Positions 1 through 32,628 of a stretch of DNA of 48,755 nt are shown in pieces. The stretch is from Pseudomonadota bacterium (GTDB lineage Bacteria > Desulfobacterota > Desulfobacteria > Desulfobacterales > Desulfolunaceae). The stretch is from positions 1-48,755 of the forward strand of contig JAHIRD010000087.1 in NCBI GenBank assembly GCA_018818835.1, written 5' to 3'. Both the position numbers and the translations under genes were made by a program. Positions within the stretch are counted from its first letter, which is position 1, and the number at the start of each line of letters is the position of its first letter. The notes beneath the pieces are model-generated. The model saw only the letters and a program-made list of their open reading frames with translations, did not search any database and had not been told where the DNA came from.

Positions 1-41
1 AAGGGATAACTCGGTGCGGTAGACTGCTGTCTACATTATAC

Positions 42-2985: not shown

Positions 2986-3336
2986 AAAAGCAGTTTAACC
3001 ATGAAGATGCCGCTCAATCTGACTTGAGATAGGTTGTGCGGCACAACACCCGACTATGAAATCCTCCATATTTTTTAATGCATATCGTATTTTCTTCTTG
3101 ATGCCATATCGTAACACCCCGGATAACCGGCTGGTGTCGACTCCCCATCGTTTTTGCCTTCGATTAAAATAAGCACAGAGAGCTGGTAGAAAAAAAAAGG
3201 TTTTTCATGTATGATCCACGTTGCGGTTTTGCTGGAGTCATGTATTTGTTTCTTGACACACCTGGGGTATCATTTTAATACATTCATTTCACTAAAACGT
3301 AACACAAACGATCTATCATCAATCAAGGAGCAGAAA

Positions 3337-4089
3337 ATGGATAAGCTTAAACGTTTTTCCGGACGGTCCCTGTTGTGGATTGTGTTCATAACAGTGCTGC
3401 TGGTTGCGGCTCTGGATTATGCCTTGTACCAGGGTATCAATCTGATGACGATAAAGGCCGGAGAGGCTGCCGCCATTTCCGAAGGGATCCGGTTCAAGGA
3501 CGGTCTGGCCCAGTACATGTATTTAAACCCATGGTTTGTGAAAGTGTTTGTGCCCGGCACCATGGCCGTGGGGCTTTTGTTTTCCCTGTTTGCCTGGGCA
3601 GCCATGAGGATGGTGTTCAAACAGAGCGTGACAGAGGAAACTGTAGCCCCCTTGAAGAAAGGTCAATCCAAGGATGCGGTCAAACCGGCCCAAATTGAGG
3701 AAAATACCCAAAAGCGTCTTTTCCTGCATTTGATTTCCGTGCTCCAGAAAGAAGGACGCCTCCTTGACTTTTTTAACGAAAAACTGGATCAGTTCGATGA
3801 TGCCCAGATTGGTTCTGCCGTTCGAAAGATCCATGAAGACTGCTCCAAAACCCTGTCCAAATACCTGGCTTTGGAATCGGTGATGCCCCAGAATGAAGGG
3901 GAGATCGTGACCATCAACGCCGGATTTGATCCGGCAGAAGTCAAACTCACGGGCAAGGTGGTGGGCGATCCCCCGTTTAAGGGGCTTTTACGCCACAAGG
4001 GATGGAAAACATCCAAAATTTCAATCCCCACATTGTCTGTCCAGGAAAATCCCGGTGTCATTGCACCGGCAGAAGTGGAAATTGAGTAA
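3337..4089 (+). CDS. DUF2760 family membrane protein of Hsp70 operon
   Basis: A 250-residue protein. ATG 3337 is preferred because AAGGAG precedes it and the two membrane segments then fall near the N terminus. These are about residues 10-30 (LLWIVFITVLLVAALDYALY) and 68-92 (VFVPGTMAVGLLFSLFAWAA). The rest is a soluble region with the family's features: a helical LISVLQKEGRLLDFFNEKLDQF segment, then HEDCSKTLSKYL, and a C-terminal LTGKVVGDPPFKGLLRHKGW. DUF2760 proteins are commonly encoded immediately before Hsp70-like genes, as here (12 bp gap). The function is unknown; a membrane-linked partner of the two Hsp70-like proteins is an inference from context. Confidence 0.85.
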   Translation: MDKLKRFSGRSLLWIVFITVLLVAALDYALYQGINLMTIKAGEAAAISEGIRFKDGLAQYMYLNPWFVKVFVPGTMAVGLLFSLFAWAAMRMVFKQSVTEETVAPLKKGQSKDAVKPAQIEENTQKRLFLHLISVLQKEGRLLDFFNEKLDQFDDAQIGSAVRKIHEDCSKTLSKYLALESVMPQNEGEIVTINAGFDPAEVKLTGKVVGDPPFKGLLRHKGWKTSKISIPTLSVQENPGVIAPAEVEIE

Positions 4090-4101
4090 AAGGAAAAAAC
4101 C

Positions 4102-11460: not shown

Positions 11461-14400
11461 TCATTCAGGGTCGGATAAAGAGACAATAAAGCATCCCCCC
11501 CCACCGCCGTCATCTCCTCCGTCACCTGGGGAACCGCTTTTTTCGGTCACGGTGATCAAGGCGGATTTGAGTTCGGAATCCGAGCTGTCCGGTCCTGCAA
11601 TCATAAGGCTGACGTCATAGACGCCCGGTGCATTGAATGTATGGGTGGGGGACGAGGCCTCGCTGGTCTCATTGTCACCGAAATCCCAATGGTTAAAATC
11701 GATACGTCCTGAGGATTGGTTTGTAAAGGAAACGGTCAAAGGCGCGGGGCCTGTGGTATTATCGCAGGTGAATCCGGCGTTGATGAAGGTGCTTCGAAGT
11801 TCATGGACCGTCTGGTTCCCTGACCGGTCCTGGGCATGGAGATACATGACGTTTCTGCCCTGGGCAAGGTCAGCCTGGGCAGGAAGGTCAAGGCTGAAGG
11901 TGACGCACTGGGTATCCGCGGGCAGATTGCCCTGGATGGCCGTGGCCATAAGATCCGGCCGGGACACGGAACAATCGTCCATCTGGTCTGCCGGAATGAG
12001 ACTTTCGTTTGTCTCCCAGGTCCCATTTGCCGTGAGAAAGAGCTGGGCGATTTCATCTTTCACAGAGACGGTGATCCGTGAAACTCCGCTGCCGAAATTC
12101 CGGTCGCAGGCCATGCCTGAGAGTGTCCCGCTTTGGGCTGTTTCATCAAAGTCGGACAGGTGGGTGAAGGCTGGTGACTGGAGATCCCTTCCGGATAAAA
12201 TGAAATGCTGGTTGATATTATCTCCCTTGGCACGGATGATGAGGGTTCCGTCTTTGGGAAGGACAGGGCGGTATCCTCTGGGTATGGCGGAAAGGCTGAG
12301 TTGATAGGTTCCTTCCGGTATATCCAAAAAAATATAAGATCCGTCGAGCCGGGTTGTTTGTGTGAGCGTCCCGCTTTTTCCGGTGAGTTCAAGGTCGGCC
12401 ACCAGGGGATTCCCTTTGGTGTCACGGACTGTTCCATCAACCGCAATGGGCCGTTTGATCAGGTTCATGAAAAGGTAATCACTGGTGAGAAGGCCAATGC
12501 CTTGGGCCGTCATGGCTGCTTTGAAGGTGATATGATCCAGATCCGGCAGGTTTTCATCTTTGAGGGTCAGTTCAAAATAAAGGGGCTCATCCATTTTAAG
12601 ATTATCCCGGGTGCGCAGGACATCGTCTTCCGTAAGATCATCATAAAGTTCCTCATCAACAAGCAGTCTCACCCTGGCATTTTGTGCTTCCCCCTGACCA
12701 TCATGGTGAAAGACCACGGCAATTCGGATGGTATCACCGGGCTGGACCTGGGTACTCGGGCTTGAAATGGCCAAAAGGTCTATTTCCTGATTTTGATTTC
12801 TCATGGTGTTGACCCAGAGCAGATGGGGTGCCCAAGGCTCTTCCTGGGCTTTGGAATAGGATGATTTGGTTGGAAATTCAGGCATGGCCCGGACCCAGTA
12901 AAATCCGTTTTCAATGCCCAGGGACTGGGTGTTCCAGTTGCTTTCCCATCGGTCTGTTTTTTCATTGTACACGGCTTCCGAAATGTTTTCCCACACATGG
13001 GACTGGTAATCTTCATGAAAGGGCCCGGAATACTGGAAAACCACTTTAAAGGGATCATTCCCGTCAAGGACCTGGAACCCGAGATTGAGGGTATCGTCCA
13101 CATAGCTGGGCGGGAAATTAAACATATGGCGGCCGGCCTCGGCTTCAAGCATATTTGATAAACGTTCCCGGACCTCCAGAAAGTCGGAGCAGGAGGGTAC
13201 TCGCAAGCTGGTGGTATGCCATTCCTCCTCGTTGCCCGCCCCGTCCACCGCTCTCCAGGAGAATTCATAGTCGGTCATGTAAAAGCAGGGAAATTCAACG
13301 GTAACTGAGGGCCCGGGCGATGAATGGTAAGATGAACCGGACCCGAAACGGTAATCGATCCGTGATACGCCGCTCAGGTTATCCGTGGCCTGGATTCTCA
13401 TGGAATCCGCATCAAAGGCAAGGACCCCATCCACCACCACCGGGTCGTCATCTCCGTATGTGGCCGTGATTTCCGACTGGGGTAAGGTGAAATCAAAGGA
13501 TATGGCCCCTTGGTTGATCATTTCCGTATGGCCAAGCTCGTTGATTGAATAGTAGCGAATGCCGTATCCCTCATTGCCTTCCAGGGATGCGGTCAGGTAT
13601 ATGGGTACACTGAAATCGGTTCCGTCACGCCATTGTGTGAGGGTTCCGTCCAGGCTGTAATTGTACCGGGTGGTCCGGATCGGAATCTCGGCATCAAAGG
13701 GAGACAGGTGAACATCCACATAAAAGGTTTCCCTCAGATGGTCGGTAAGATTCTGGCGGTTTACCCATGGGGTATAAAATGCCGTGGTTGTGGGCGGTGT
13801 CATGGCCCCGGTCACACCGTTGATCCGCAGTGAGGGATCACCAAACAGCTGGACTTTGTAAACCGAGTGAAACCGGGCCGGTGGAAACCAGTTCCAGCGG
13901 CCCCCCACATCCGCATCCGGCCAGTCGCTTTCGTGTATCCAAGATGAACAGGTGGCCGTGTCCAGATTGTACTCATCGATAAAGTCCTCGATGGCCTGAC
14001 GGTAGCAGGAACCCATGGTGGCCAGGCCGCTTTCAACGGCCCTGAATATGCGTGAGTCAAAATACAGGCCCGGAGGTTGATTGGACACGAGGCTGCCGAT
14101 ATAAATAACCCCCCCATCCGAGTAATCGGTGAGAAAGGCTTCGGCCATGGAATTTTCATCAGCCGCCAGGGTAACGGGGGCAAGACGTGGTGATGAATCG
14201 GAATCTGACTGGGCATAGCGCGCAGTGGAGCAGGAGCCCGGCGCAATGACAATGGACGGTTGCCAGGCGTTGGTCAGGGCCGAGACATCGGACCTTCGGA
14301 ATCCCGGTTCTGCGAGACTGCCCGATGACCCATGACCGGCATAATTGATGAACTGGGGGTAATGATCGTTGACATAGTCAATGATGGTGTCATGGGCATT

Positions 14401-15267
14401 CACATCCGATGTGGTCCGTCCCCCATCGGTAAAATCCCAGGGCTCCCCGCTTTCCCCCAGAAGATAGGAAATATCAAGGAGGCTTTCCATGAACGTGCCG
14501 ATATTCAGCTTGGTTCTCTGGCTGGTGCTAAAGCCCCCGCCGATGAACAAGGCTTTTTTTTCTGCGTAGGGTGTATTGTTCTCATAGGACATGACTTTGA
14601 TCATGTAACGGAAGAATTCATCGGGGTTTTTGCATGGGATTCGTCCCAGGGCCACGTCCGGGTGTATGGTGTTTTCATCGGTTCCCCTGAAATTATCATA
14701 ATATTTTTCCCCATAAAAACCATCGCCGTCAGCATCCCAGTTGTCGAAATTCCTGGCAGGGTCTTCATCATCCCAGAGGTTTGAGTAGTATGCATCACAG
14801 GGGAAAAACCCATAGGAGTCGAAGGGATACCATGATGAGGTTCCGTCGTTCCATGCCCAGTGGGTGAGGCCCACCGATGAATAGCCGAAATACTGGTACC
14901 GGATGGGGAAAATGCCCGTATCTCCGACAAGCATGACGTATCGGGCATCCGAGTACATGGCCTGGTTGTAAATCAGACGTTTGATCCGTTCAGGTTCGTC
15001 CGCCCCTTCGGTGTCATAGGCCCTGTTGATGAACTCCAAGGTAAAGACCTGGGTGTCCATGCCGGTTTCTTCCTTGTAGGTTTCAAATTGTTCGGCCACC
15101 TGGACCCATGCTTCATCCTGCTGAACGACTGACCCCGTTGGGTTGTATGGAACGATGATCAGAAGTTCTGCAGAAATCACAGGAAGGGCCTGGATGCACA
15201 GAACAAAAAATACAGTGACCCATGGGATCAGACACAGAAACGGTTTAAAGATGTATTGCCGGTTCAT
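11461..15267 (-). CDS. Secreted gingipain-like C25 cysteine peptidase with PKD domain and CFI tail
   Basis: A 1268-residue exported protein with AAAGGAG before ATG 15267 and a signal peptide to about residue 33. The C25 peptidase domain covers roughly 35-480. It has YVMLVGDTGIFPIRYQYFG, then the catalytic His312 in FINYAGHGSSGS, and the nucleophile candidate Cys346 in IVIAPGSCSTARYA, followed by the family's MAEAFLTDYSDGGVIYIGSL. Next come Ig/Big-like and carboxypeptidase-regulatory-like domains (GTVRDTKGNPLVADLELTGK), then a PKD domain (GPAPLTVSFTNQSSG, WDFGDNETS). The last residues are a Gly/Asp-rich linker and GGGGGCFIVSLSDPE. That tail is similar to the one on the protein at 18161-22000 and may be a sorting or anchoring signal. 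Peptidase substrates are unknown; C25 members include gingipains and the PorU surface sortase. Confidence 0.88.
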   Translation of the reverse strand: MNRQYIFKPFLCLIPWVTVFFVLCIQALPVISAELLIIVPYNPTGSVVQQDEAWVQVAEQFETYKEETGMDTQVFTLEFINRAYDTEGADEPERIKRLIYNQAMYSDARYVMLVGDTGIFPIRYQYFGYSSVGLTHWAWNDGTSSWYPFDSYGFFPCDAYYSNLWDDEDPARNFDNWDADGDGFYGEKYYDNFRGTDENTIHPDVALGRIPCKNPDEFFRYMIKVMSYENNTPYAEKKALFIGGGFSTSQRTKLNIGTFMESLLDISYLLGESGEPWDFTDGGRTTSDVNAHDTIIDYVNDHYPQFINYAGHGSSGSLAEPGFRRSDVSALTNAWQPSIVIAPGSCSTARYAQSDSDSSPRLAPVTLAADENSMAEAFLTDYSDGGVIYIGSLVSNQPPGLYFDSRIFRAVESGLATMGSCYRQAIEDFIDEYNLDTATCSSWIHESDWPDADVGGRWNWFPPARFHSVYKVQLFGDPSLRINGVTGAMTPPTTTAFYTPWVNRQNLTDHLRETFYVDVHLSPFDAEIPIRTTRYNYSLDGTLTQWRDGTDFSVPIYLTASLEGNEGYGIRYYSINELGHTEMINQGAISFDFTLPQSEITATYGDDDPVVVDGVLAFDADSMRIQATDNLSGVSRIDYRFGSGSSYHSSPGPSVTVEFPCFYMTDYEFSWRAVDGAGNEEEWHTTSLRVPSCSDFLEVRERLSNMLEAEAGRHMFNFPPSYVDDTLNLGFQVLDGNDPFKVVFQYSGPFHEDYQSHVWENISEAVYNEKTDRWESNWNTQSLGIENGFYWVRAMPEFPTKSSYSKAQEEPWAPHLLWVNTMRNQNQEIDLLAISSPSTQVQPGDTIRIAVVFHHDGQGEAQNARVRLLVDEELYDDLTEDDVLRTRDNLKMDEPLYFELTLKDENLPDLDHITFKAAMTAQGIGLLTSDYLFMNLIKRPIAVDGTVRDTKGNPLVADLELTGKSGTLTQTTRLDGSYIFLDIPEGTYQLSLSAIPRGYRPVLPKDGTLIIRAKGDNINQHFILSGRDLQSPAFTHLSDFDETAQSGTLSGMACDRNFGSGVSRITVSVKDEIAQLFLTANGTWETNESLIPADQMDDCSVSRPDLMATAIQGNLPADTQCVTFSLDLPAQADLAQGRNVMYLHAQDRSGNQTVHELRSTFINAGFTCDNTTGPAPLTVSFTNQSSGRIDFNHWDFGDNETSEASSPTHTFNAPGVYDVSLMIAGPDSSDSELKSALITVTEKSGSPGDGGDDGGGGGCFIVSLSDPE

Positions 15268-18160: not shown

Positions 18161-21100
18161 TTAATCGCCAAATATAGGCGCAAGGCTTCCCACAAAGCAG
18201 CCGCCTCCGCCTGAATCACCGTCACCGGAGCCTGTACCCAGGGGAGTGGCTGAAATTCGGGACGGGCCTCCGGTGTCTGTGACGCTGCCGTTGGTGGTAT
18301 CCAGGTCATCGTCACCCCGTAAACCGTCTACAAAATGAAGGGTGATGATGTTGCCAACGATCTCTGCCCCGGTGGTTCCATCAAAAAGGAATTCATACCA
18401 GTGGGCCGTGGCATTGTCCGGGGTGGGGCCGTATTTGTAATAACTTGAAACCGTCGTGCCTGGGGGAAGGTAAAGGGTGAGTGTTGTCCCTGCACCGGGG
18501 GTCAGGCCTGCTATGATAAAATCAAAAAAACCAAAGGGGAAATCCACATCCGGTGCATCGGCAGAGGAGGGGTTGCCCGAGGCTCCAACATTGCTGAGAA
18601 CTGTTCCCGTGGGTGATTCCAGCGTCACATAGGCATCACCTGCAAAGGAATCAAGGGCGGTGACATTGGCCTGGTCTCTGTCGGGGGTTCCGTCTTCATT
18701 GCCGTCGTACAGGGGGTCGTCGCCATCCGGCCCGGATTCGGATGCGGGATTGACTGTGCTGTCATGATCGTTGTTGTCCAATCCACCGGAGAGAGACGAG
18801 TCATATCCGTCTCCGTCGGCGTCTTCGTCACAGGCATCCCCAAGACCATCGCCGTCCATATCCTCCTGGCCAGGATTGACAACAGACTGGCAGTTGTCCA
18901 CATTGCCGCAGACAGAATCTCCGTCCCGGTCGTTGTCCCCATCCAGGGGACAGATATCCAAATTCCCGCATATTCCGTCATGGTCCTGATCATTTCCAGC
19001 GTCATAGGGGCAGTCATCCACACAGTCATAAAGGCCGTCACTGTCTGAATCAAGATCCGGGTTGCCGCAGCCGCAAATGCCCGGAGATACTTTCAAGGGG
19101 TCATCGGGACAGAGGTCCACCGTATCCCCTGAAACCGTTACATCGTGGGAAACCGAAATCTCGCCGCCCCGGTTGTCATAGGCCGTCAGAGTGACACCAT
19201 AGGTTCCGGGTAAGGCATAGATGTGGGTGATGGAGTCCTCGGTTGTGACCACGGGTTCTTCTTCACCGAAATTCCAGAGCATGTGGGTGATGGCGCTGTC
19301 CCCATCATCCATATGCGCTGTAAAGGTAACGGTATCACCGGTTAAGGGCCGTTCAGGATCAACAATGAAATCACCTTGGGGAATCAGGTTGGGGCCCAGC
19401 TTGAACAGCCATATGCCCGGATTTCGCGCCCGTGTGGCAAGAACCACAAGACTGCCATCGGCCAGATAAGACACGGCCTGTCCTATGTCCTCGGTATCTG
19501 TATTACCCATCTCCTTTTCCCAGAGAAGATTCCCCTCGCCATCGCATCGGACCATGTATAGGTTGTTGCCGTCCGGGTATTTTAGGACATCGCCCACAAG
19601 AATAAACCCTCCATCAGGGGTTGCGGCCCCATTGCCGAACACCTCATACGAATAGTCGGTTCCAAAATGCCTGGCCCAGATCACATCACCGTCCGGATCA
19701 AGTTTGATCAGACCGTAATCGTTCAGGTACTGGCCTGCCAGCACGAAATCGTGGCCCATGGTTTCATGGAGATAATAGATGGTGCTTTTTGTGGTGTCAT
19801 TGCCCATCTTTTTTCGCCATTCTTCATTCCCCGAACCATCGGTCTTGATCAGAAGCATAGGGGAGTTGGACGCATAAACATAATAATCGCAACTGACCAG
19901 ATAGCCGCCAGCTTGAACCGGTAGCACTTCAAGCCCTTTGAGATGGTGGTTTTCCGGATCAGGGGTGTCTTCAAATAGCTGGTGCCATTGCTCATGGCCC
20001 TCCCCATCGGTTTTGATCAGACACATGTTGTAGATCACAGCCGCTGGATTGGATATTTTCAGATGGGCCGAATGGCCGGTGATGACGTACCCCCCGTCCG
20101 GGGTGGGCTTCACATCCCCAGGGCTGTCTCCGTGTCCGTAATCAAAAACCCTTTCCCAGATCACATCCCCCGGAACATAGGGCCCCTGGGCAAAGGCTGC
20201 GATCTTCATCAGTTTGATATCCAGTCCGGGCAGGAGGTCTTCCGGATCGGTGTTGCGCACTCCCAGGGCAATCAGGTGTCCGTCATGGGCCAGTGTCACC
20301 GATTTGATAAACTCGTTTCGATTACCATAGGCCACATCCCTATAGATTCGTGACCAGTCCGTGTTTCCATGGGAGTCGGTTTTTATGCCCCACATGTCAC
20401 AGCTGGCGCTTGTGCCCATGCAATTGATGCCCCCGATAAAGAAGCCGTTGTCCGGAGTCTGTACCATATCATAGCCATAATCCCGGCCATCGCCGTAAAG
20501 GCGCTCCCACTGCATGTCCAGATCCCTGACCTCGAGGGTTTGGCTTGTCTCTTGCCGGACACCATGGTTGTCGGTGACATAAAGGGTGACCCTGTATTGG
20601 CCAGGCGCTGCATAACTGTGGCTGGCCATGGATTCGGTTCCCGTGAAACCGTCTCCGAAATCCCATTCGTACAGAAGAATTTCCCCATCCGGGTCAGACG
20701 AGGCCGACCCGTCGAACATCACAGGTATATGCATGAACAAAGGACTTTCAGGGCTGTAATCAAAGGATGCTGTGGGGGGCTGGTAGGACCCGCTCATTTT
20801 TGCGGCAAACATCCAGGAGCTTTCTTCCCAGCGGGCCGTTCCGGCCACGATCAGGGACCCGTCATCGTCCTCCACGACCCCTTTTCCTTCATCGCGTTCC
20901 GCCTCCCCCAGAACCACATCCCAGATCATGTCACCTGCGGCATCGGTCTTGATCAGCCATATATCTCCCTGGCCATGCCATCCGTATGACTGGGTGGTTC
21001 CAGCCATGGCAAACCCCATGTCTGAGGTTTGAATCACTTCATTGCCCACATCGTTCATTCCTGTAGCCCCCAGGCAGGGTTGGGCTCGTCCAAAGGTGTG

Positions 21101-22000
21101 CTCAAAGGCTGTGGTGCCGTCTCGATTGATTTTCAGCAGAACCAGATCCGTATGCTCAATGTCGCCTGGGACCAGGGTCGACCCCGTGGCCACATAACCG
21201 TCTTCCACCTCAATCACCGACATGTAGGAATCGGTTCCAACGGTCCAGGAAAGGGCAGGCGGGGTTGCGCTATCAAGTTTGTAAAGACCGTCCTCCGTTG
21301 CAAGGATATAGCCTCCGTCCGATGTGGGACAGGCCGAGTGAATGATGGGGTGCACATACCATGTGCCACCGGGCAGATCCATGTACATGTCCCAAGTGAC
21401 ACCCCCCATGGTATCGGTTTGGATCAGATAACCGGTCCAGGCGCCCAGAAGCGGGCCATTGCTGTATACCCCGCCGAGAACAAGTCCGTCACCATCATGA
21501 GCAACCTGATACGTATAATCATCAAAGGGATTTCCGTATGTCTGGTCCCAGACTTTTTCAAGGCTTAAATCGGTTTTCATCAGCCAGGCATAGGAGGTGT
21601 AGTATTCTTGACGATCATATTCATAAGCCTGATGCCTGCCGCCGGCCACCAGGTAACCGTCAAACAGGCCTTCGCCGTCAAAACTTTCAATGATGTCAAA
21701 AGCCTGGTTGTGGTCTGTTTCACCATCAAAGGTTTTCCAGTTGACCACGTTCCCCTCCCTGTCAAAGCGGGCCAGGGCTGTCCAGAAATCAAGGGCAGGA
21801 CTCTCCATGCCCGTTTGCCGGCCGGCCAGAACATAACCCTGGCTGGTGGCAACGATGGATTCTGCCCGGCTGTCCGTTAAAAAAATCTTTCCCCACTGGG
21901 CCCCCGCAGGTGCCGGAAATTCCGCTGCCGGACAAAGTGAACAGCATGAAAAAAAGATTAAAAATAATCCCCAAATGGGATGAATCCTCAAGCTTGACAT
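18161..22000 (-). CDS. Secreted PKD / thrombospondin-3 / choice-of-anchor U surface protein with CF-tail
   Basis: A 1279-residue exported protein. ATG 22000 (MSSLRIHP) is chosen because AAGGAGA lies just upstream; an ATG six codons earlier lies before that site. Residues ~35-420 and ~520-870 are propeller-like repeats of the type GG(Y/F)xxAGxxxSYG...IWLIKTDxxG. A PKD domain follows each block (YEWDFGDGFTG; LWNFGEEEPV). Next is a calcium-binding thrombospondin type 3 region with many DxDxDG loops (NQDHDGICGNLDICPLDGD, EDMDGDGLGDACDEDADGDG), then a choice-of-anchor U-like domain (DAPDVDFPFGFFDFIIAGLTPG). It ends in SGGGGCFVGSLAPIFGD. Choice-of-anchor domains sit directly before varied C-terminal sorting signals, which supports reading this tail as one. 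The ligand or role is unknown; adhesion or surface coat are possible. Confidence 0.85.
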   Translation of the reverse strand: MSSLRIHPIWGLFLIFFSCCSLCPAAEFPAPAGAQWGKIFLTDSRAESIVATSQGYVLAGRQTGMESPALDFWTALARFDREGNVVNWKTFDGETDHNQAFDIIESFDGEGLFDGYLVAGGRHQAYEYDRQEYYTSYAWLMKTDLSLEKVWDQTYGNPFDDYTYQVAHDGDGLVLGGVYSNGPLLGAWTGYLIQTDTMGGVTWDMYMDLPGGTWYVHPIIHSACPTSDGGYILATEDGLYKLDSATPPALSWTVGTDSYMSVIEVEDGYVATGSTLVPGDIEHTDLVLLKINRDGTTAFEHTFGRAQPCLGATGMNDVGNEVIQTSDMGFAMAGTTQSYGWHGQGDIWLIKTDAAGDMIWDVVLGEAERDEGKGVVEDDDGSLIVAGTARWEESSWMFAAKMSGSYQPPTASFDYSPESPLFMHIPVMFDGSASSDPDGEILLYEWDFGDGFTGTESMASHSYAAPGQYRVTLYVTDNHGVRQETSQTLEVRDLDMQWERLYGDGRDYGYDMVQTPDNGFFIGGINCMGTSASCDMWGIKTDSHGNTDWSRIYRDVAYGNRNEFIKSVTLAHDGHLIALGVRNTDPEDLLPGLDIKLMKIAAFAQGPYVPGDVIWERVFDYGHGDSPGDVKPTPDGGYVITGHSAHLKISNPAAVIYNMCLIKTDGEGHEQWHQLFEDTPDPENHHLKGLEVLPVQAGGYLVSCDYYVYASNSPMLLIKTDGSGNEEWRKKMGNDTTKSTIYYLHETMGHDFVLAGQYLNDYGLIKLDPDGDVIWARHFGTDYSYEVFGNGAATPDGGFILVGDVLKYPDGNNLYMVRCDGEGNLLWEKEMGNTDTEDIGQAVSYLADGSLVVLATRARNPGIWLFKLGPNLIPQGDFIVDPERPLTGDTVTFTAHMDDGDSAITHMLWNFGEEEPVVTTEDSITHIYALPGTYGVTLTAYDNRGGEISVSHDVTVSGDTVDLCPDDPLKVSPGICGCGNPDLDSDSDGLYDCVDDCPYDAGNDQDHDGICGNLDICPLDGDNDRDGDSVCGNVDNCQSVVNPGQEDMDGDGLGDACDEDADGDGYDSSLSGGLDNNDHDSTVNPASESGPDGDDPLYDGNEDGTPDRDQANVTALDSFAGDAYVTLESPTGTVLSNVGASGNPSSADAPDVDFPFGFFDFIIAGLTPGAGTTLTLYLPPGTTVSSYYKYGPTPDNATAHWYEFLFDGTTGAEIVGNIITLHFVDGLRGDDDLDTTNGSVTDTGGPSRISATPLGTGSGDGDSGGGGCFVGSLAPIFGD

Positions 22001-22092
22001 GGTGAATCTCCTTTGCATGGTTAAAATATCAGCACTGTTTATGTCTTATTGACGTGCCGAAAATCGATATCTTGCAAAGAAAATTATCCAAA

Positions 22093-23235: not shown

Positions 23236-26200
23236 ATGTGTCTTACCCGTTTTACATATGTTCTTGCCCTGTTATTCGTCTTTGCTGTTTATCAACCAGC
23301 CCATGCCGAGGTCTTTACGGACCTGGGTCTTTATGGGGGACAGGTTTTTTCCCTGGCCATTGACCCGGATCAGCCGGATCGTATTTTTGCCGGCATTTAC
23401 CTGGGAGACGGACTGTACTTTAGTTCCGACGGGGGCAACCATTTCCAGCCGGTCAGGACCGGAAGTGTTCTGGGTGCCGAAGGGGAATTCAAGAACCATG
23501 CGATCTATGATGTCAAAATCGCCCCGTCAAAGGGAACCACGGTCTTTGCCACCAACCATTATTGTCTTGAAAAAAGTGAGGATGGGGGGCTGAGTTGGAG
23601 TCATATCACCAATGGGCGCATGCAGGCCGATTGCGCAAACAGTCAGGGGGATGTCTGGCGTATGTGCAAACGCATTGCCATTCACCCCACAGATCCCGAT
23701 ATTGTGTATGTGGGCACTGAAAAGCCCTATGGAAACACCACGGCAGGTGGGGCGGTGTACAAAACCATGGATGGGGGCGATTCCTGGATCAAGTTGAATG
23801 GTGGAGCGGACCTGGATACCATTGTGACAGACCTGGCCTTGGATCCACAGAATCCTGACAGGGTCTTTGTGACAACAGCCTCAGCCACCACTGGGTATGG
23901 CCAGGGAAGCCTCTACCTGAGTGAGAACGGAGGGGCGGAATTTGAGAAAATAAGTGGCGACGAAACCGTGGGGGCTTATTACGGGATCGCCGTCAAGCCG
24001 GACAATGGCACCGTGGTTTTTACGGGGTGCGATTACGGTCTGTTTAAATACAGTTATGACGGGGATCAGTGGGTGGTTACCCAGGTTCTGCCCGAGGCTG
24101 TTTTTGCCGGGGACCCGGTTTTTGACGCTCACAATCCCGATCGTTTGTATGTGGCCTGGAAACGTCCCTCGTATTTTGGTGGGGATGATCGCTCCAAGGT
24201 GTCCGTGAGCACCGACGGAGGGACCCGGTTTGAAACGGTCACCCTGGATACGGCCATGTCCGATAAGTTGTCCGTGATTGCACTTCACCCCACGGACCCT
24301 TTGATCATCTATGCCGGTGATATGACCATGGGTTGTCTGATCAGCCGAGACCAGGGCCAGACGTTTTCTTCGTCCAGCCAGGGAATTTTTGGGGTCATTA
24401 CATACGACATGGCTGTGGATCCTCACGATACCCTGCATATGATCGCCGGAACCAGCTCGGGCCTGTTCGAACGAAAGGCAGGAAATGTCTGGTCCCGGCT
24501 CAGGCAGGGGATTGTCCGGTCCGTGAGCTTTGATCCCCATGACAACCGGATTTTTTACGCGGGTATTTCCGGGATGAGTAACCGGCTTCACAAGACCCTT
24601 GACAGCGGTGACTCCTGGACAGAAAGCGATGATGTGACGAGTTATATCAGCCATATTGCCGTGGACCCCACGGAGAGCAGCACGGTGTATCTGACCGAGG
24701 GGCAGCGGGTCAGAAAAAGTGTGGACGGCGGTGCACGCTTTGAGACGGTTCTGACCGGCCAGAATCTTTCCGGGCAGGCCCACAGCATGAATGTGGTGGC
24801 AGTGGACCCCACAGACTCAGATCATCTCTATGCCGGGGGTGGAAATTTTTATGTGCCAAGGGTCTATGGTGATCTTTGGGAAAGCAGAGATAAAGGGGAA
24901 AACTGGACCCGCACCGGACTGGTCAATGCCATCATAAACGACCTTCTGATTGATCCGAACCATCCTGAGATTCTTTATGCAGGCTGCGGTTACAGTGCCA
25001 ATTACCAGGATCCTGTCCTCAAAAGTATGGACGGGGGGGCATCCTGGCAGGTTGTGGAACAGGGGCTGCCCAACAAGACCACGCGTCTTTTGAATATCTG
25101 GGGGGCCTCAAGGGATCAGGTCTATGCCGTGGGCTGGGACGGACTGATCGTCCATGTCTCATTGGGTGAGGTCTCTGTGATGAATTCCGGTGACAGTCAT
25201 GATTTGTATGGCATCGCAGGTGTCTCGGCCCAGGATATGTTTGCAGTGGGAGGGGCCGGAACCCTTCTTCATTTTAACGGCAGTGCCTGGGCACACCAGG
25301 AAAGTCCAACCACCGATAACCTGATTGACGTATGGGTGCATGCATCCGATGATGCGTTTGCCGTGGGGGCCAACGGGACCATTGTCCATTATGACGGGAA
25401 TGTGTGGACCTCCATGGTCGGCAATACAGCCGAGCACCTTGAAGGTGTTTTCGGTTTTGGGGCCGATGATGTCTATGCCGTGGGAGGGAAGGGGCTTATT
25501 CTCCATTATGACGGGAACCAGTGGTCGCCCATGACCAGCTCCCTGCCCGTGGATACCTCCATCAATCTCCTGGATATCTGGGGCAGCGATTCGTCCCATA
25601 TTTATGCGGTGGGACCGTCGGGCACCATTCTTTTTTTTGATGGAAATGGCGACGGAGTGTGGGTTGCCATGGACAGTCATACCACCGATTACCTGGCAGG
25701 CATCTGGGGAACGGTGACCGGTCAGGTCTATGCCGCAGACAGCTATGGTGGTCTGTTGAAATTTGAGAACAATGACTGGCAGCCCGTGGCCGCAGACAGG
25801 ACAATTGCCTCAACGGAAGTCTGGGGTTTTTCCGACTCCGATGTGTTTGTGTGCGATACCTATGGGGGGATTTTCCACCTGGCAGAAGGTGCATGGGACA
25901 CGGTGCGGGAGCCGGGAAACACCGGACGGAGTGTGGTTGATCTGGCCTTTCACCGGGAAAACCCCGATATCATTTACGCGGCAACCTACTATGGCGGTCT
26001 TTACATTTCTCCCAACAAGGCGGAAACCTGGCTGCATCTGGGGACCCCGGAATACTCTGTGTTCGCCATTGCCCCGGGTTCCCTGTATGCAGGAACCCAG
26101 GGAAAGCTGGTCCAGTGTACGGGAACCGGTGTCGTTGCAGGGAAGGTGACCGATGCCCTCAGCGGATCTGCCCTTACCGGGGCCAGGGTTGAAAGCACCC

Positions 26201-28725
26201 TGGGAGGCCTGTCCCTTTCCGTGAATGGGGACTATATGATGGTCACACCATCGGGTATCTGTGATCTGACCGCCGTTGAATCTCTCCATCTCGATACGGG
26301 CCTTTCAGGCATAGAAATTTACGGTGGAAACGTCAGCTGGGCCAACATCGCCATGCAGCCAAGAATCATGGAACTCTATCCCCAGGATGGGGCGAATCCT
26401 TCGGGGACAATCCCGCTTGCCGTGCAGATAAACGATCCCGACGGCATTGACCTGACCCAATCCGGAAATGTCCGATTTCTGATCAACGACAGCACCCAAA
26501 GCTATGTGAGAGACCTGGCCCATGACACGGTCCGTGTGATCAAACTCAACCCCGACGAAGAGGACAGCCATGTCACGGCCTTCTGGTTCGTGTATGACAG
26601 AACCAGGGAAGATATTGATCCTTTTTATGCTGTGGGCGCAATCATCGAGGCCGAGGTGGAAATCCTGCACGTGTCCCATGGCACCTGGTCGTTTACGGTA
26701 TCTGAGGAACCGGCCCATTTGGACCTGCCCCGGACAGAGTCTCTTGATGCAAGCGATCCCCTTCTCAGCTCAGGAATCTATGATGCCGGGATCCGCATCA
26801 CCCAGGGCATGGCACGGGGGGCAACCATTTTGTACAACAGCAGTATCCATGACACCCCCTTGTTTGGTTCTTCATCGGAATGGGATGACCATCTTCTGGA
26901 AAACGGGGTGGGGATTCCCCTGAACCTTCAGGTTTCAGGAACATTTTTTGATCCTCAGGTGACGGTACTGATTCCTTGTCCCGGCTATCTGGATGTGAGC
27001 GGTATCGCCCTTTATGTGTTCAAAGACGGCATCTGGCAAGAGGCCTGCGATACCCAGGGCAATATTCTCCAGGCCGGGATCGGTTTTATTAAACACGGAT
27101 CACGGGTCAATCATTCGAATGGCGACCCCTCATATATTGAGGTCCAACTTTATCATTTTACCGGCATCCAGGGTGCCACGGGTGATCTGCCTCCCATTCC
27201 GGTGACCGGGGCCGGGGACGGGACCACGGCGGATGACAGCGGCAGCTTCTGCTTTATCGCAGCCGTGGGCAATCATGGATGGACCTGTTCACGGACCCTT
27301 TTTGTGGCAGTGGTTCCCGGGATTCTTTTTATTCTGGCAGGATGTGTGCTTTTCGTCTTAAAAAAAAAGGGGCCAAGGTCATGGGCGTGTCCAATCCATA
27401 AAAACACGGGCGTCTTGTTCAGTCTGTTCATGGCCCTTGTGCTTTTTTTCATGATGCCCGTGGCCACCTTATTTGCAGCAACCCTGTTTCAGCAGGTGGG
27501 CATTGCCTCATCACCCAATCCCGTGGGTTCAGGGGCCAGGGCCACGGGCATGGGTGGGGCGTTTATTGCCATTTCCGATGATGCCACTGCAGCATCCTGG
27601 AACCCATCGGGACTGATTCAGCTTGAAAAACCCGAATTATCCCTGGTGACTGATGCCTGCCTTCGGACCCGGACCTTTTCGTCGGACAGTCATCCCGAGA
27701 TTCATTCAACGGAACGCGTCACCAATGAAAATATCAACTATCTGAGTGCCACATGGCCCTTCCATTCCTGGAAAAACATGGTTTTGTCCGTCAATTATCA
27801 GCGTCTTTATGATTTCAAGATGGACCTTGACTATGTTTATGACTATGCATCTTCGGGCCTTGATCTTACCCAGGCAAAAGCATTCAGCCAGGCGGGGAGT
27901 CTGGGCGCCCTGGGTCTTTCCTGGGCCCTTGAGATGAATCCGAATCTGTCTGTTGGATTGTGTGTCAATGTATGGACAGATCAGCTGGGATGGTCCAACG
28001 GATGGAGCGCCTCTTACCGTGACATGGGTTCAGGCACCCAAGGGGGAGCGCCGGTGACCCTTTCAACACGTATCCATGAACGCTACAGTGATTTCAGGGG
28101 ACTTAACACCAACCTGGGTTTTTTATGGGACATGGGGCAGGGTTTTACCCTTGGGGCTGTCATCAAAACCCCCTTTGACGCAGACTGTCATCACGAATTT
28201 CATGCTGTGAGCATCAGCACCCTGAGCCCCGACAGCACCTTGGATCAGGTCGAAACCGTCACCATACGCATGCCCCTTTCCTATGGTTTGGGTCTGGCCT
28301 TTCGCAGGTCCGACCGATTGACCGCAGCCCTTGACATTTATCGGACCCACTGGAGCGACTTTCGTATCACCGATTCATCGGGGAATCGTTTCAATCCCAT
28401 TGACGGACAGCCCGAATCCCAGTCCCATGTTTCCGATACGCTCCAGATCCGGACCGGTGCCGAATATCTTGTTTTATATCCCGAACGCCAGATCAGTGTT
28501 CCCCTTCGGGTTGGATTTTTTTATGACCCGGAGCCCGCCCATCGCAGTGTCAGGAAATTCTACGGCCTGAGCATGGGGTCCGGTATGACCTTCAAGTCAT
28601 TTTCCTTTGATGTTTCCTATCAGTACCGCTGGACCCATGATGTTGATTCAGGCAACCTCATCGCCACTTCCCATGCCGATGTCCGGCATCACACCCTCAT
28701 GTCATCCATGATCGTTTATTTTTAA
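23236..28725 (+). CDS. Giant fusion: ASP-box/propeller surface protein + CFI segment + TM anchor + PorV/FadL-like barrel
   Basis: 1829 residues in one frame, GGGGGA before ATG 23236, signal peptide to about 26. Residues ~30-620 hold about ten ASP-box (BNR) repeats such as SEDGGLSWSHI and SMDGGASWQVV. Residues ~625-870 are a second propeller type (DVYAVGGKGLILHYDGNQW). A carboxypeptidase-regulatory-like domain starts near 963 (GVVAGKVTDALSGSALTGAR), followed by beta-rich modules. Then comes GSFCFIAAVG (Cys1339), a membrane helix (~1354-1375) and KKK, which would normally be the end of a C-terminally anchored protein. The frame continues without a stop into a second signal-like segment (Met1399, MALVLFFMMPVATLFAA) and a complete ~430-residue PorV/OmpP1-like barrel (GARATGMGGAFIAISDDATA, SWNPSGL) ending in IVYF. 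No ribosome site is evident before Met1399. Either a true polyprotein or two genes joined by stop-codon loss. Confidence 0.85.
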   Translation: MCLTRFTYVLALLFVFAVYQPAHAEVFTDLGLYGGQVFSLAIDPDQPDRIFAGIYLGDGLYFSSDGGNHFQPVRTGSVLGAEGEFKNHAIYDVKIAPSKGTTVFATNHYCLEKSEDGGLSWSHITNGRMQADCANSQGDVWRMCKRIAIHPTDPDIVYVGTEKPYGNTTAGGAVYKTMDGGDSWIKLNGGADLDTIVTDLALDPQNPDRVFVTTASATTGYGQGSLYLSENGGAEFEKISGDETVGAYYGIAVKPDNGTVVFTGCDYGLFKYSYDGDQWVVTQVLPEAVFAGDPVFDAHNPDRLYVAWKRPSYFGGDDRSKVSVSTDGGTRFETVTLDTAMSDKLSVIALHPTDPLIIYAGDMTMGCLISRDQGQTFSSSSQGIFGVITYDMAVDPHDTLHMIAGTSSGLFERKAGNVWSRLRQGIVRSVSFDPHDNRIFYAGISGMSNRLHKTLDSGDSWTESDDVTSYISHIAVDPTESSTVYLTEGQRVRKSVDGGARFETVLTGQNLSGQAHSMNVVAVDPTDSDHLYAGGGNFYVPRVYGDLWESRDKGENWTRTGLVNAIINDLLIDPNHPEILYAGCGYSANYQDPVLKSMDGGASWQVVEQGLPNKTTRLLNIWGASRDQVYAVGWDGLIVHVSLGEVSVMNSGDSHDLYGIAGVSAQDMFAVGGAGTLLHFNGSAWAHQESPTTDNLIDVWVHASDDAFAVGANGTIVHYDGNVWTSMVGNTAEHLEGVFGFGADDVYAVGGKGLILHYDGNQWSPMTSSLPVDTSINLLDIWGSDSSHIYAVGPSGTILFFDGNGDGVWVAMDSHTTDYLAGIWGTVTGQVYAADSYGGLLKFENNDWQPVAADRTIASTEVWGFSDSDVFVCDTYGGIFHLAEGAWDTVREPGNTGRSVVDLAFHRENPDIIYAATYYGGLYISPNKAETWLHLGTPEYSVFAIAPGSLYAGTQGKLVQCTGTGVVAGKVTDALSGSALTGARVESTLGGLSLSVNGDYMMVTPSGICDLTAVESLHLDTGLSGIEIYGGNVSWANIAMQPRIMELYPQDGANPSGTIPLAVQINDPDGIDLTQSGNVRFLINDSTQSYVRDLAHDTVRVIKLNPDEEDSHVTAFWFVYDRTREDIDPFYAVGAIIEAEVEILHVSHGTWSFTVSEEPAHLDLPRTESLDASDPLLSSGIYDAGIRITQGMARGATILYNSSIHDTPLFGSSSEWDDHLLENGVGIPLNLQVSGTFFDPQVTVLIPCPGYLDVSGIALYVFKDGIWQEACDTQGNILQAGIGFIKHGSRVNHSNGDPSYIEVQLYHFTGIQGATGDLPPIPVTGAGDGTTADDSGSFCFIAAVGNHGWTCSRTLFVAVVPGILFILAGCVLFVLKKKGPRSWACPIHKNTGVLFSLFMALVLFFMMPVATLFAATLFQQVGIASSPNPVGSGARATGMGGAFIAISDDATAASWNPSGLIQLEKPELSLVTDACLRTRTFSSDSHPEIHSTERVTNENINYLSATWPFHSWKNMVLSVNYQRLYDFKMDLDYVYDYASSGLDLTQAKAFSQAGSLGALGLSWALEMNPNLSVGLCVNVWTDQLGWSNGWSASYRDMGSGTQGGAPVTLSTRIHERYSDFRGLNTNLGFLWDMGQGFTLGAVIKTPFDADCHHEFHAVSISTLSPDSTLDQVETVTIRMPLSYGLGLAFRRSDRLTAALDIYRTHWSDFRITDSSGNRFNPIDGQPESQSHVSDTLQIRTGAEYLVLYPERQISVPLRVGFFYDPEPAHRSVRKFYGLSMGSGMTFKSFSFDVSYQYRWTHDVDSGNLIATSHADVRHHTLMSSMIVYF

Positions 28726-28947
28726 TGGCCTCACAATATATCAATTAAAATACTTCCCTGTGAATCACATTTAAACTACAATGCTTGATTAATGATTTAT
28801 CATCTGATATGCAGATAAAATCGTTGTCATATCTGATACAAAAACAGTAAAAACATAGAAGCCTATTTTGATGATTATGAGTGATTGTCTGTGCGGAAAT
28901 CGGTCATGGGTCAGATGTGTGTCCCTATCCCTGGAAGGAGTTCCCCT

Positions 28948-31900
28948 GTGAAACGAGAATGGTCTGTGAAAAGAATATGCCTCATCCATGTATTGGTTAT
29001 GGTTGTTTGGGCGTGTGGTTTGATGACCGCAGCCTGTGCCGAAGATGTTATGACTGTTTCTATCGAATCCGAAAGGGATGTTCTCCTTTCCCCCACAAGG
29101 ATGTGCCAGCGGACCATTGATCAGGCTGGAAAGATTCCGGATCACGTACCCAGGCGGGTTACGGTGAAGTTAAAAGCTCCGCTGAACATTGACAATACAA
29201 AGACAAAATCATCACAGGTGCCATTTTTAAGACGACTTGATGCTCTGGGCGTGGCACAGGTGATGCCCGTATTCGGGACCATAAAAACCCACAACGCCTC
29301 CGGGACCATGTCCGAATCCATTGATTATGAAACCATTCGACCTGTTAAAGAATCCCTCAGAACATATTATGTGTTGGATCTTCCCGATGCAATGGACATG
29401 GAAACGATGCTGGGTCACCTGGAAAATGACCCGGATATCCAATGGGCAGAGCCCTGCTATAATCGGTTCATTGAATCCACATCCAATGACCCCTTTCTGG
29501 ATCAGCAGACCTATTTGCACACGGTCCGGGCCCAGGATGCCTGGGATGTGACACGGGGCGTGAAGGATGTGGTCATTGCAGTCATAGATACAGGGGTTGA
29601 TCTCACCCATCCGGACCTGGAAGACAATATCTGGCTTAATCCAGGGGAAATTGAGGGTGATGGTATTGATAATGACCATAATGGATTTATTGATGATATC
29701 CATGGCTGGGATTTTGTCAGTGTCAGTGCAGGCGACGTGGCCAACGGGGAAGACCCTGGGCCCCCGGATAACGATCCCTCGGATTTTTATGGGCACGGAA
29801 CCCATGTGGCTGGAATTGCCGGTGCTGCGGGTGATAACGGCGATGGGGTTGCCGGGATTTGCTGGAATGTCAGTATCATGCCCCTTCGGGCGGGATACAG
29901 GTCAGATGAGGGGCAGGGCGTCCTTGACTCCTCGGCCGTTTCTGCGAGTCTTGTTTATGCTGCCGATAATGGCGCCGATATTGTGAATATGAGTTTCGGA
30001 AGTTTTTATCCAAGCCGCTTGGAGCTTGATGCCATTGATTATTGCAGCCAGGCGGGGGTGCTCCTGGTGGGAGCGGCCGGGAACAGCAGCGTGGACGTAC
30101 CGTCCTACCCTGCAGCCTATGAACAGGTCGTATCCGTGGCTGCCACCAATAATGGCGATTGGATGACCTCAACGACAAATTATGGCATCACGGTGGATCT
30201 TGCGGCTCCCGGATATTATATTTTCAATACCTTGATGGGAAATGAGTACGGCTATAAATCAGGCACAAGCATGGCAGCCCCTGTGGTTTCGGGGATTGCC
30301 GGTCTTATTCTGTCGGCAAATCCCGGGTGGGATGCGCATCGTATTCAACGTCATTTAATTGAAACATCCCGGAATATCAATCATTCAAATCCGTTTTTTG
30401 TCAACCTGCTCGGGGCGGGTATTCCCGATGCCCCTTCTGCCATGGCCGATCTGCCCCAACGGGACAGGGCAGGCATGGTCGACCTTTTTCCGCTGATGGA
30501 CAATGGCTCTGATCTTTCCATGGATTCAGGTGAAACCATCCGTCTTGTTCCAAGCATAAAAAATTTTTCAAGCCCCATCGGCCAACTGTCTGCACGGATG
30601 TCATCATCGGACGAATACATTCAGGTTTTAAACGATACGGTGTCTTTTTCATCAATTGATGAACAGGGCGTGTCCACAGCGGTCGATGATTATTTCGAAA
30701 TTCAGATAGGCCCGGACGCTCCGGAGAATGCCTTTTGCAGTCTGACCATTGACCTTTGGACAAACGCGGGTGTCATCGCAACAGATACCCTGAGGCTTCC
30801 TGTCAATCCCGCCATGGGGCCCCCCGTGATGCTCACGGGGGCGGCCCATGGTTCTGTGAATTACTGGCTGACAGACCTTGACGGAATTCCCGGAGGCGGA
30901 GCCCTTTGTCTGTATAATTCCCAGGGGTTTACAGACACCATGGCTGTGAATGCCTCAATGTGTGACACGGATGGGCAATGGACCCAGCCCCAGCTGATCA
31001 GCGATGATCAGTCGCTCCATGCATCGAATGCCCTGGCTGACGTCCATGGGGACGGGACCATCCATGTGGTGTATTTCGGTGCGGTGGGCAATTGGGATAA
31101 AGAGCTTTTTTATACTCGAAAAGACGGCGGAAATTCGTCCTGGGATGCTCCTTTAAAGATCACCGAACAGGCAGAAATTTACAGTGTCCAGCATTCATCT
31201 TCCTGCCATACTCTTGGGGTGGATCAAAACGGGAATCCCCATGTGGTCTGGGAGGATTACCGAAACGGAAATCCGGCCATCTATCATATGTCTTATGAGG
31301 ATGGTCAGTGGGGCGAAGAAACCCTGATATACCAGGGTGAAGAAGGGTGTGATCCCTATGAATTGACACTGTTATTCGATGAGGTGGGGACCGGTTATCT
31401 GTTTGTTTTGAGTGATATGGAAAATGAGACGGCTGACAGACGATGGCATCTGGACATGATGACCGTCTCTGGCCGCATCTGGAGTCCTCTGGCTTTGATC
31501 AATGCCGCCTCGGGAAATATTCAGAAAATTATTATGGACCAGGATGGTGATCTCCACCTGATTTACATTCACGCCATAAACAACAGCACAGGAAATCTTG
31601 CCTATTATAAACATTATCGAAATTCGATGTGGTCCGATGCGGAAAGGATCACATCTTTCAGCCGCACCGATATGTTTGTGGATTTTCTCATGGGAACTCC
31701 TGGCCTTCCAACCCTTGTTTATTTGAATAACAACGAGGGCATGGACCAGGTGTTTCATACGGATTTAAGCGTCGGGGGCTGGACGGAGGCCCAGTTTATT
31801 TCAATGGCAAAGATCACCCAATACCCCTATCAGTCCCATGCCTATTTCGGTTTTGTGGCTGATGACGCAGGCCATGAATATTTATGCTCCAGATATCAGT

Positions 31901-32628
31901 CCGGGTTTGACCTTGGGGATATTGCTGTGGAATCATCCATTAAAAATCCTTCCAATATACCTCAAAAGCCCGACGTGTTCAGTTATGTGACCGACGAACA
32001 AGACGGGGATGTGATCCATCTGTCCATGGATTCTACCCAGCCCGGGGACATTGACGAGTACATGTACGCCCTGGGGCGTTTTCCGGGCAGCTGTGACCTT
32101 TTATACTGGACACGTGCAGGGGAAAATACATCCATTGTGATTCATATGGCTGAATACATGATGTATAACCCGGCATACACGTATTATGTCAGTGTGAAAG
32201 CACGAAAAGGTGCTTACTGGTCGCCCGTTGCGTTTACTCCTGTTGATTGTGGAAACACCGAATGTGATAATCTTGTGCCAACACCCGATCCCATGACATT
32301 TTCTTCGGCGCCATTCAATAATACTTACGGGTCGGTCCGAATGATCGCAACACAGGCCCAAGACATTCAGGGGGTGGAATACTATTTTGAGGAAATCACC
32401 GGGAACCCGGGGTCAGACAGCAGCGGATGGCAGGATGCCTCCCAATATACAGATACAGGCCTCCAGGCAAACACCACCTACACATACAGGGTAAAGGCCC
32501 GTGACAAATCCTTGGGGCAAAATGAAACAAACTGGTCCCAAGAAGCTTCAGTGACAACCCAAAAGAATGAAACCAAGTCCATATGGACCTTGGTGTGGGA
32601 ATTTTTATTGGGTCTTTATAGAAAATGA
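28948..32628 (+). CDS. Secreted subtilisin-family (S8) serine protease with C-terminal sialidase-like and FN3-like regions
   Basis: A 1226-residue protein. GTG 28948 is chosen because GGAAGGAG lies nine bases upstream; a TTG 21 codons earlier lacks a site. The signal peptide runs to about TAACA-ED. An inhibitor-like propeptide precedes the peptidase domain, where the triad is complete: Asp214 (AVIDTGVDLTHPDL), His283 (GHGTHVAGIAGA) and Ser441 (GTSMAAPVVSG). After a linker, residues ~640-1080 form repeats reminiscent of sialidase-like propellers (GNPHVVWEDYRNGNPAIYH, DLHLIYIHAINNSTGNLAYY). The end holds an FN3-like module (GVEYYFEEITGNPGSDSSGW, NTTYTYRVKARD) and a short hydrophobic tail without the CFI motif. 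Located 222 bp after the fusion gene on the same strand; it could process surface proteins, including the fusion, but this is inference. Confidence 0.92.
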   Translation: MKREWSVKRICLIHVLVMVVWACGLMTAACAEDVMTVSIESERDVLLSPTRMCQRTIDQAGKIPDHVPRRVTVKLKAPLNIDNTKTKSSQVPFLRRLDALGVAQVMPVFGTIKTHNASGTMSESIDYETIRPVKESLRTYYVLDLPDAMDMETMLGHLENDPDIQWAEPCYNRFIESTSNDPFLDQQTYLHTVRAQDAWDVTRGVKDVVIAVIDTGVDLTHPDLEDNIWLNPGEIEGDGIDNDHNGFIDDIHGWDFVSVSAGDVANGEDPGPPDNDPSDFYGHGTHVAGIAGAAGDNGDGVAGICWNVSIMPLRAGYRSDEGQGVLDSSAVSASLVYAADNGADIVNMSFGSFYPSRLELDAIDYCSQAGVLLVGAAGNSSVDVPSYPAAYEQVVSVAATNNGDWMTSTTNYGITVDLAAPGYYIFNTLMGNEYGYKSGTSMAAPVVSGIAGLILSANPGWDAHRIQRHLIETSRNINHSNPFFVNLLGAGIPDAPSAMADLPQRDRAGMVDLFPLMDNGSDLSMDSGETIRLVPSIKNFSSPIGQLSARMSSSDEYIQVLNDTVSFSSIDEQGVSTAVDDYFEIQIGPDAPENAFCSLTIDLWTNAGVIATDTLRLPVNPAMGPPVMLTGAAHGSVNYWLTDLDGIPGGGALCLYNSQGFTDTMAVNASMCDTDGQWTQPQLISDDQSLHASNALADVHGDGTIHVVYFGAVGNWDKELFYTRKDGGNSSWDAPLKITEQAEIYSVQHSSSCHTLGVDQNGNPHVVWEDYRNGNPAIYHMSYEDGQWGEETLIYQGEEGCDPYELTLLFDEVGTGYLFVLSDMENETADRRWHLDMMTVSGRIWSPLALINAASGNIQKIIMDQDGDLHLIYIHAINNSTGNLAYYKHYRNSMWSDAERITSFSRTDMFVDFLMGTPGLPTLVYLNNNEGMDQVFHTDLSVGGWTEAQFISMAKITQYPYQSHAYFGFVADDAGHEYLCSRYQSGFDLGDIAVESSIKNPSNIPQKPDVFSYVTDEQDGDVIHLSMDSTQPGDIDEYMYALGRFPGSCDLLYWTRAGENTSIVIHMAEYMMYNPAYTYYVSVKARKGAYWSPVAFTPVDCGNTECDNLVPTPDPMTFSSAPFNNTYGSVRMIATQAQDIQGVEYYFEEITGNPGSDSSGWQDASQYTDTGLQANTTYTYRVKARDKSLGQNETNWSQEASVTTQKNETKSIWTLVWEFLLGLYRK

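Follow-up and report, generated by a model that had tools for sequence, protein, structure and literature searches.

How did a surface protein with a sorting-type ending come to share one reading frame with an outer membrane barrel, and what would become of the product? This question is raised by positions 23236-28725 (+) of the window, by which we mean the whole 48,755-nucleotide stretch of DNA that was analysed, where a reading frame of 1829 codons runs uninterrupted. The 1829-residue frame is genuine as sequence and is the join of two genes, referred to here as the passenger and the barrel. Both halves have clear homologs, so that neither is a chance match.

Parts of the fused frame

The passenger begins with an N-terminal signal peptide read by eye (residues 1-24, MCLTRF..AHA/E, hydrophobic window 1-19; 23236-23307 (+)), and a hydrophobic stretch sits at the equivalent place in its relatives. 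Propeller repeats follow at about residues 25-960 (23308-26115 (+)), with profile matches to Sortilin-Vps10 (81.4 bits) and to PSII_BNR/YCF48 (PSII_BNR, 38.4 bits); they are collinear with the corresponding proteins of three related loci, L071, L072 and L075. Comparison with L072 suggests that about residues 961-1331 (26116-27228 (+)) form a carboxypeptidase-regulatory-like domain and then a beta-rich one, for which the fold model here is poor.

The initial annotation had placed a sorting-type ending in the middle of the frame, and it is indeed present there. It consists of a CFI-box-like sorting motif with Cys1339 (context SGSFCFIAAVG; 27229-27264 (+)), a hydrophobic helix at residues 1357-1375 and a KKK at 1376-1378 (27304-27369 (+)). 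The helix is the best 19-residue hydrophobic window (mean KD 2.87); helix and KKK are a putative stop-transfer element, and the gene of the best relative ends at this point. A run of nine A (A9, 27360-27368 (+)) marks the junction and is followed by the linker GPRSWACPIHKNT (residues 1379-1391, 27370-27408 (+)), a read-through of what was presumably intergenic space. Next comes an internal signal segment (residues 1392-1414, 27409-27477 (+)), whose hydrophobic part, 1392-1410 (KD 2.39), contains Met1399 and whose predicted cleavage site is LFA/ATLFQQ. The second signal-like segment at Met1399 and the complete barrel with an aromatic end that had been proposed to follow the tag were thus both confirmed, the last residue being Phe1829.

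The barrel itself occupies residues 1415-1829 (27478-28722 (+)). Residues 1437-1803 match the Pfam Toluene_X/OmpP1 model with 43.8 bits, above the gathering score of 29.7. An AlphaFold2 model of residues 1415-1829 (mean pLDDT 90.7, with an N-terminal tail of low confidence) aligns with FadL (1t16; Z 35.6, rmsd 2.9, 365 residues aligned) and with BamG (9n2d; Z 36.5, rmsd 3.4, 357 residues aligned). Two T9SS translocon entries follow at Z 26 through their chain F, which we take to be PorV. Judged by this model, the barrel is a full FadL/BamG-type fold: it shares the fold of the FadL/TodX/BamG family over about 360 residues at Z of about 36, at only 11-20% identity to the structures. The curated NCBIfam cut-offs of BamG (67.6 of 250 bits), PorV_fam (66.2 of 90), PorVQ2 (35.6 of 325), T9SS_OM_PorV (31.1 of 250) and PorQ (20 of 220) were all missed by the barrel. 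The SprA_N translocon model (PF14349) had no match in the genome that carries the window, and the control genomes were equally without one, so that a T9SS-like locus is neither supported nor discounted by this. A fold model of residues 1040-1829 is confident for the barrel but mostly of low confidence for the passenger domains and for the helices near 1355-1376 and 1391-1423, and it gives no usable view of the contact between passenger and barrel.

Two separate genes in relatives

We surveyed 291 genomes of the order, scoring up to five candidates per genome. Barrel matches at E 1e-20 occurred in 39 of them, the genome of the window included, and apart from the 1837 aa of the window the open frames of the listed matches were at most 568 aa long. 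A search of genome contigs with the whole fused protein found no relative; from the search with a barrel alignment, the best 79 of 505 confirmed stretches were added as loci. After duplicate removal, 124 distinct barrels including that of the window were retained among the matches listed. None of the other 123 is fused: each is preceded by an in-frame stop within 148 codons of the aligned barrel, as against 1415 codons in the window, and no frame exceeds 601 codons. In 119 of these the frame is closed at both ends, and in four (L165, L186, L190 and L229) it runs off the stretch downstream; two short frames (the second copy of L209, 276 codons, and L210, 200 codons) begin inside the aligned barrel.

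The FadL/TodX/BamG family thus offers no second fused member among these listed matches, and a conserved polyprotein family was rejected on the same count. The initial annotation had proposed that homologs be aligned and the architecture be taken as real if related genomes kept the fusion. By that test it is not conserved, since the homologs are two genes wherever the pair is visible. The same count speaks for an error of sequencing or assembly, in which a base was miscounted near the A9 run or within 27381-27398 and the cell has two ordinary genes. We regard this as possible but somewhat less probable than a real fusion, and weigh it further below. The fusion was seen in one genome, and the eight genomes of the family that were searched include no second one of the same genus.

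The seven closest relatives among the matches listed (L070-L076; 49-58% barrel identity) show what the unfused arrangement looks like. In five of them (L070, L071, L072, L073 and L075) a CFI/CII-tagged gene with its own stop lies immediately upstream on the same strand, and all five tagged genes are homologous to the passenger of the window. Where both genes are seen, they are separated by a stop and 60-249 nt. The closest parallel is L071, with passenger, stop, a 60-nt gap and barrel: its passenger, 41% identical to that of the window over 1403 columns, runs collinear with it as far as residue 1378 and stops two residues later. Passenger identity is 42% for L072 and 40% for L075, 37% over 378 columns for the shorter frame of L073, and 44% over 90 residues for L070, where the gene is cut by the contig end. 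The tails of these upstream genes read GGGGGGCFISRAACG (L071), GGVCFIKTAAI (L072), GGGGCFIQVSFR (L075), GCFIATAAYGS (L073) and GGGGGGCIISAAACR (L070). Of the remaining two loci, L076 has its tagged gene cut down by the contig edge to a Gly-rich CFIMTLTSE tail, and L074 has no tagged gene upstream of its barrel. The gene pairs of the relatives fall in four other families (labelled f41, f17, f21 and f29).

The surroundings vary. In L070, L071, L072, L074 and L075 the next frame after the barrel has 667-693 codons; in L071 (7972-10041, about 690 aa) it matches CsgG/FlgO and Glucodextran_B, and by eye sigma-like and anti-sigma-like genes come after it. In its place, the window has a subtilisin-family (S8) peptidase gene directly after the fused gene (28885-32628 (+)), which lacks a CFI tail and ends in WTLVWEFLLGLYRK. 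Elsewhere in the window (3211-8704 (+)), a DUF2760 gene is followed by two adjoining Hsp70-like genes, the second with DUF3731 (DnaK-related). In the more distant L077, L078, L082, L083 and L086, the gene upstream of the barrel encodes a protein of about 980-1060 aa; these proteins have the C-terminal pattern KxGMxLIFFxE...ELG in common and are not CFI proteins.

The junction and its possible origins

The junction at 27360-27372 reads AAAAAAAAAGGGG, and its A9 run is the point where homology to the L071 passenger ends. That relatives have separate genes, and that collinearity extends as far as this run, is observed; the fusion event itself we infer from these comparisons. The L071 passenger and barrel share one frame and, by eye, are kept apart by two stops, whose loss would fuse the genes. 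The explanation we favour, to which we give about an even chance, is that two ancestral adjacent genes were likewise joined by stop loss at or just after the A9 run, and that the precursor is then cut into two chains.

The run is conspicuous in its own right. Only three A/T runs of at least nine occur in the 48755 bases, the two others lying elsewhere in the window, and by position alone 0.006 would be expected in the 105-nt junction zone. This placement favours a miscounted base. It would also suit a slippage switch, in which the A9 run lets the frame shift at the RNA polymerase or the ribosome, or by mutation within the population, so that a short passenger (ending GAKVMGVSNP) is made alongside the fusion. 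The run is followed by GGGG; with one added base the frame closes at 27399-27401, 10 codons after the KKK, and with one base lost it closes at 27452-27454. We consider such a switch unlikely, because the nine-A run is absent from the junction stretches of the seven relatives and two other such runs lie elsewhere in the window.

The start of the barrel gene bears more directly on a miscounted base. An out-of-frame ATG at 27381-27401 (+), with AAGGGG 8 nt before it and a TAA after 6 codons, sits at the position expected for the barrel start; it may be a remnant of the barrel's own start, and it counts in favour of an error. Of the in-frame starts that lie 15-40 codons upstream of A1415, none has a Shine-Dalgarno match as long as 4. 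Among the relatives, the barrel ATG of L070, L071 and L074 follows a GGAGG or AGGAGG, and the others have weaker sites. Since those of L075 and L076 are also weak (AGGA at most, by eye), the missing ribosome site in the window is not decisive.

In silico single-base edits over 27340-27444 comprised 315 substitutions, 105 deletions and 420 insertions. All 105 deletions break the frame, and in 17 of them the barrel regains an ATG that has a ribosome site and leads into a charged N-terminus, which makes a one-base error a live rival. These rescuing deletions all leave a 73-nt overlap and a passenger tail longer than those of the relatives, which counts against an error. So does the outcome of the substitutions, of which 14 break the frame and none of the 14 provides the barrel with a start that has a ribosome site. 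Every insertion breaks the frame as well; eight give some start with a site, two of these being ATG, and none gives an ATG with a charged N-terminus. These results neither prove nor exclude an error. Short-read assemblies are rarely wrong by one base, which would also count against it if such reads were used. Codons 1378-1414 (37 codons) are open, and since they are equally open in 20% of shuffles, this is no evidence either way; the third-position GC of codons across the junction gave nothing decisive. On balance, a real fusion with a lost barrel start is somewhat better supported than a sequence error, because a mere hidden stop would leave the barrel start in place.

Proposed processing, the CFI box and candidate partner barrels

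If the fusion is real, the anatomy of the chain suggests a route by which it could be handled. The stop of the first gene, encoding the CFI-tagged propeller protein, would have been lost at or shortly after the A9 run, giving a single frame with the barrel. The chain would enter the Sec pathway via its first signal, and the passenger would move to the periplasm until the helix 1357-1375 and the KKK halted transfer, leaving a basic loop in the cytoplasm. The hydrophobic segment 1392-1410 could then serve as a second, internal signal, and signal peptidase I might cut after A1414 to free the barrel for the BAM machinery. The passenger would presumably be held by its tail until a CFI-box step anchored it, so that the cell would end up with the two proteins encoded by separate genes in the relatives, at 1:1. 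These steps are read from sequence features, and among possible mechanisms a signal peptidase I cut at the internal signal appears the likeliest. L at -3 is an acceptable residue for signal peptidase, if not the most usual one. The site is LQA/ATLFQQ in L070 and L071 and LWA/ATLFQQ in L072, so that L-x-A/ATLFQQ is kept. The internal processing that the initial annotation had suggested would fit a chain with two signals and a putative stop-transfer helix between them. The Bradyrhizobium FbcH cytochrome b/c1 polyprotein is likewise one chain that holds two envelope proteins, with an internal signal at which signal peptidase separates them. Unlike the outer membrane fusion of the window, FbcH concerns inner membrane respiratory proteins and is conserved and studied. 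A literature search on internal-signal polyproteins gave no useful precedent among the matches listed.

The order of passenger then barrel also recalls type V autotransporters, in which a single chain displays the passenger by its own barrel with no membrane stop between the two. Here, a strongly hydrophobic helix and KKK intervene. An uncleaved chain of this kind would have its FadL-type barrel display the passenger outside, with the N-terminal tail running through the pore. The resemblance of the barrel model to FadL and BamG is consistent with this, as the N-terminal tails of the FadL family are described as reaching outside through the barrel, in BamG via a lateral opening (PMC12611786). 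We consider this reading very unlikely: the helix and KKK should halt transfer at the inner membrane, the relatives use two chains, and the barrel was modelled with low confidence in its N-terminal tail.

The fused layout, for which the initial annotation knew of no described family, has a published parallel. MXAN_5598 of Myxococcus xanthus combines an adhesin region, an internal MYXO-CTERM and an outer membrane barrel in one frame, and its authors suggest a possible fusion of two genes with processing at the internal tag (PMC11980579). Compared by this described layout, both proteins have an N-terminal surface region, an internal Cys sorting tag and a barrel in one frame, and the layout is in that sense known in kind. 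On the same description, the window protein is distinct in its tag (CFI box versus MYXO-CTERM), in its FadL/BamG-type barrel and in its lineage; the barrel part of MXAN_5598 carries OmpA domains, none of which is listed for the window protein. The same authors liken to MXAN_5598 the combination of TraA and TraB, a tagged surface receptor and its partner encoded in overlapping frames (PMC11980579). As in the relatives' pairs, tagged protein and partner lie side by side, but TraA and TraB are separate chains and by that comparison the barrel carries OmpA-type domains. A cell-contact function for the window protein might be proposed after TraA/TraB, though only by analogy.

In the window, the order of Cys1339, helix and KKK is like that of the tripartite MYXO-CTERM tag in arrangement only, and its basic residues are Lys, whereas the MYXO-CTERM end is described as Arg-rich (PMC11980579). 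The MYXO-CTERM system proper was rejected, since the MrtX-type myxosortase model (NF040593) had no match in the genome at E 0.001; four of the 14 control genomes gave weak matches, all below the cut-off, so that the control contains no true positive. The genome does have three secretin matches and, elsewhere, one CPBP-family (PF02517) gene.

The CFI box (NCBIfam NF041763), a curated putative sorting motif, scores 12.6 bits in the window by segment scan and 14.7 by genome search, both below the curated cut-off of 15.9. At E of 10, weak matches also occur in 11 of the 14 control genomes (one above the cut-off), so that the score alone proves little; the case is carried by the position of the motif and by the homologs. 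Cys1339 is followed by a further 490 residues, and the motif is therefore not C-terminal in the fused protein. The genome has 21 matches at E up to 10; in 15 of them the motif is no more than 31 residues from the stop of a frame of at least 340 aa (for example GGGGCFINSLDK, or GGGCFINSLDK directly before the stop). The other six are that of the window, the best-scoring one, L090, which the script did not place, and four in frames of 26-70 aa that look like chance. By eye, the 15 C-terminal matches mostly have no helix after the motif, so a helix after the tag, as in the window, L070 and L071, is not a fixed feature. Their extreme C-terminal form also differs from the CFIATAAYGS with a long tail of L073. 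Two further genes of the window have CFI-type tails below the NF041763 cut-off: a C25 (gingipain-type) peptidase with PKD (11461-15267 (-), tail GGGGGCFIVSLSDPE) and a PKD protein with choice-of-anchor U (18161-22018 (-), tail GGGGCFVGSLAPIFGD). A full-text search of one limited library returned no papers for the CFI-box by name. We know of no machinery that handles it.

CFI/CFL/CFV tags are commoner directly upstream of barrels, in 8 of 94 same-strand genes versus 6 of 471 in the class "other" of the same loci (one-sided Fisher P 0.0006), with 0/69, 2/70 and 0/53 tagged at the positions up2, dn1 and dn2. A second count, using another pattern in the last 160 residues, gave 10/94 upstream versus 13/663 (P 0.0002); it leaves 84 of the 94 upstream genes tagless and misses the CII tag of L070. 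These P values are only a guide: the loci are related, frames were called mechanically, and both counts cover genes of at least 100 aa that have a stop within the stretch, the window excepted. CFI-tagged proteins and barrels of this family thus pair recurrently, though to a modest extent. A wider scheme, to which we assign a low probability, would have the CFI surface proteins of the order handled by adjacent FadL/BamG-type partner barrels, much as PorV acts with T9SS cargo; the fused gene would be its extreme, and the A9 run would set the balance between fusion and free passenger.

If the precursor is cut at the internal signal, it would constitute a bacterial two-protein precursor for the outer membrane. 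The fusion, together with the adjoining genes of the relatives, makes the FadL-type barrel a candidate partner of the CFI box, and this pairing of CFI-tagged proteins and barrels is a more useful lead than the fusion itself.
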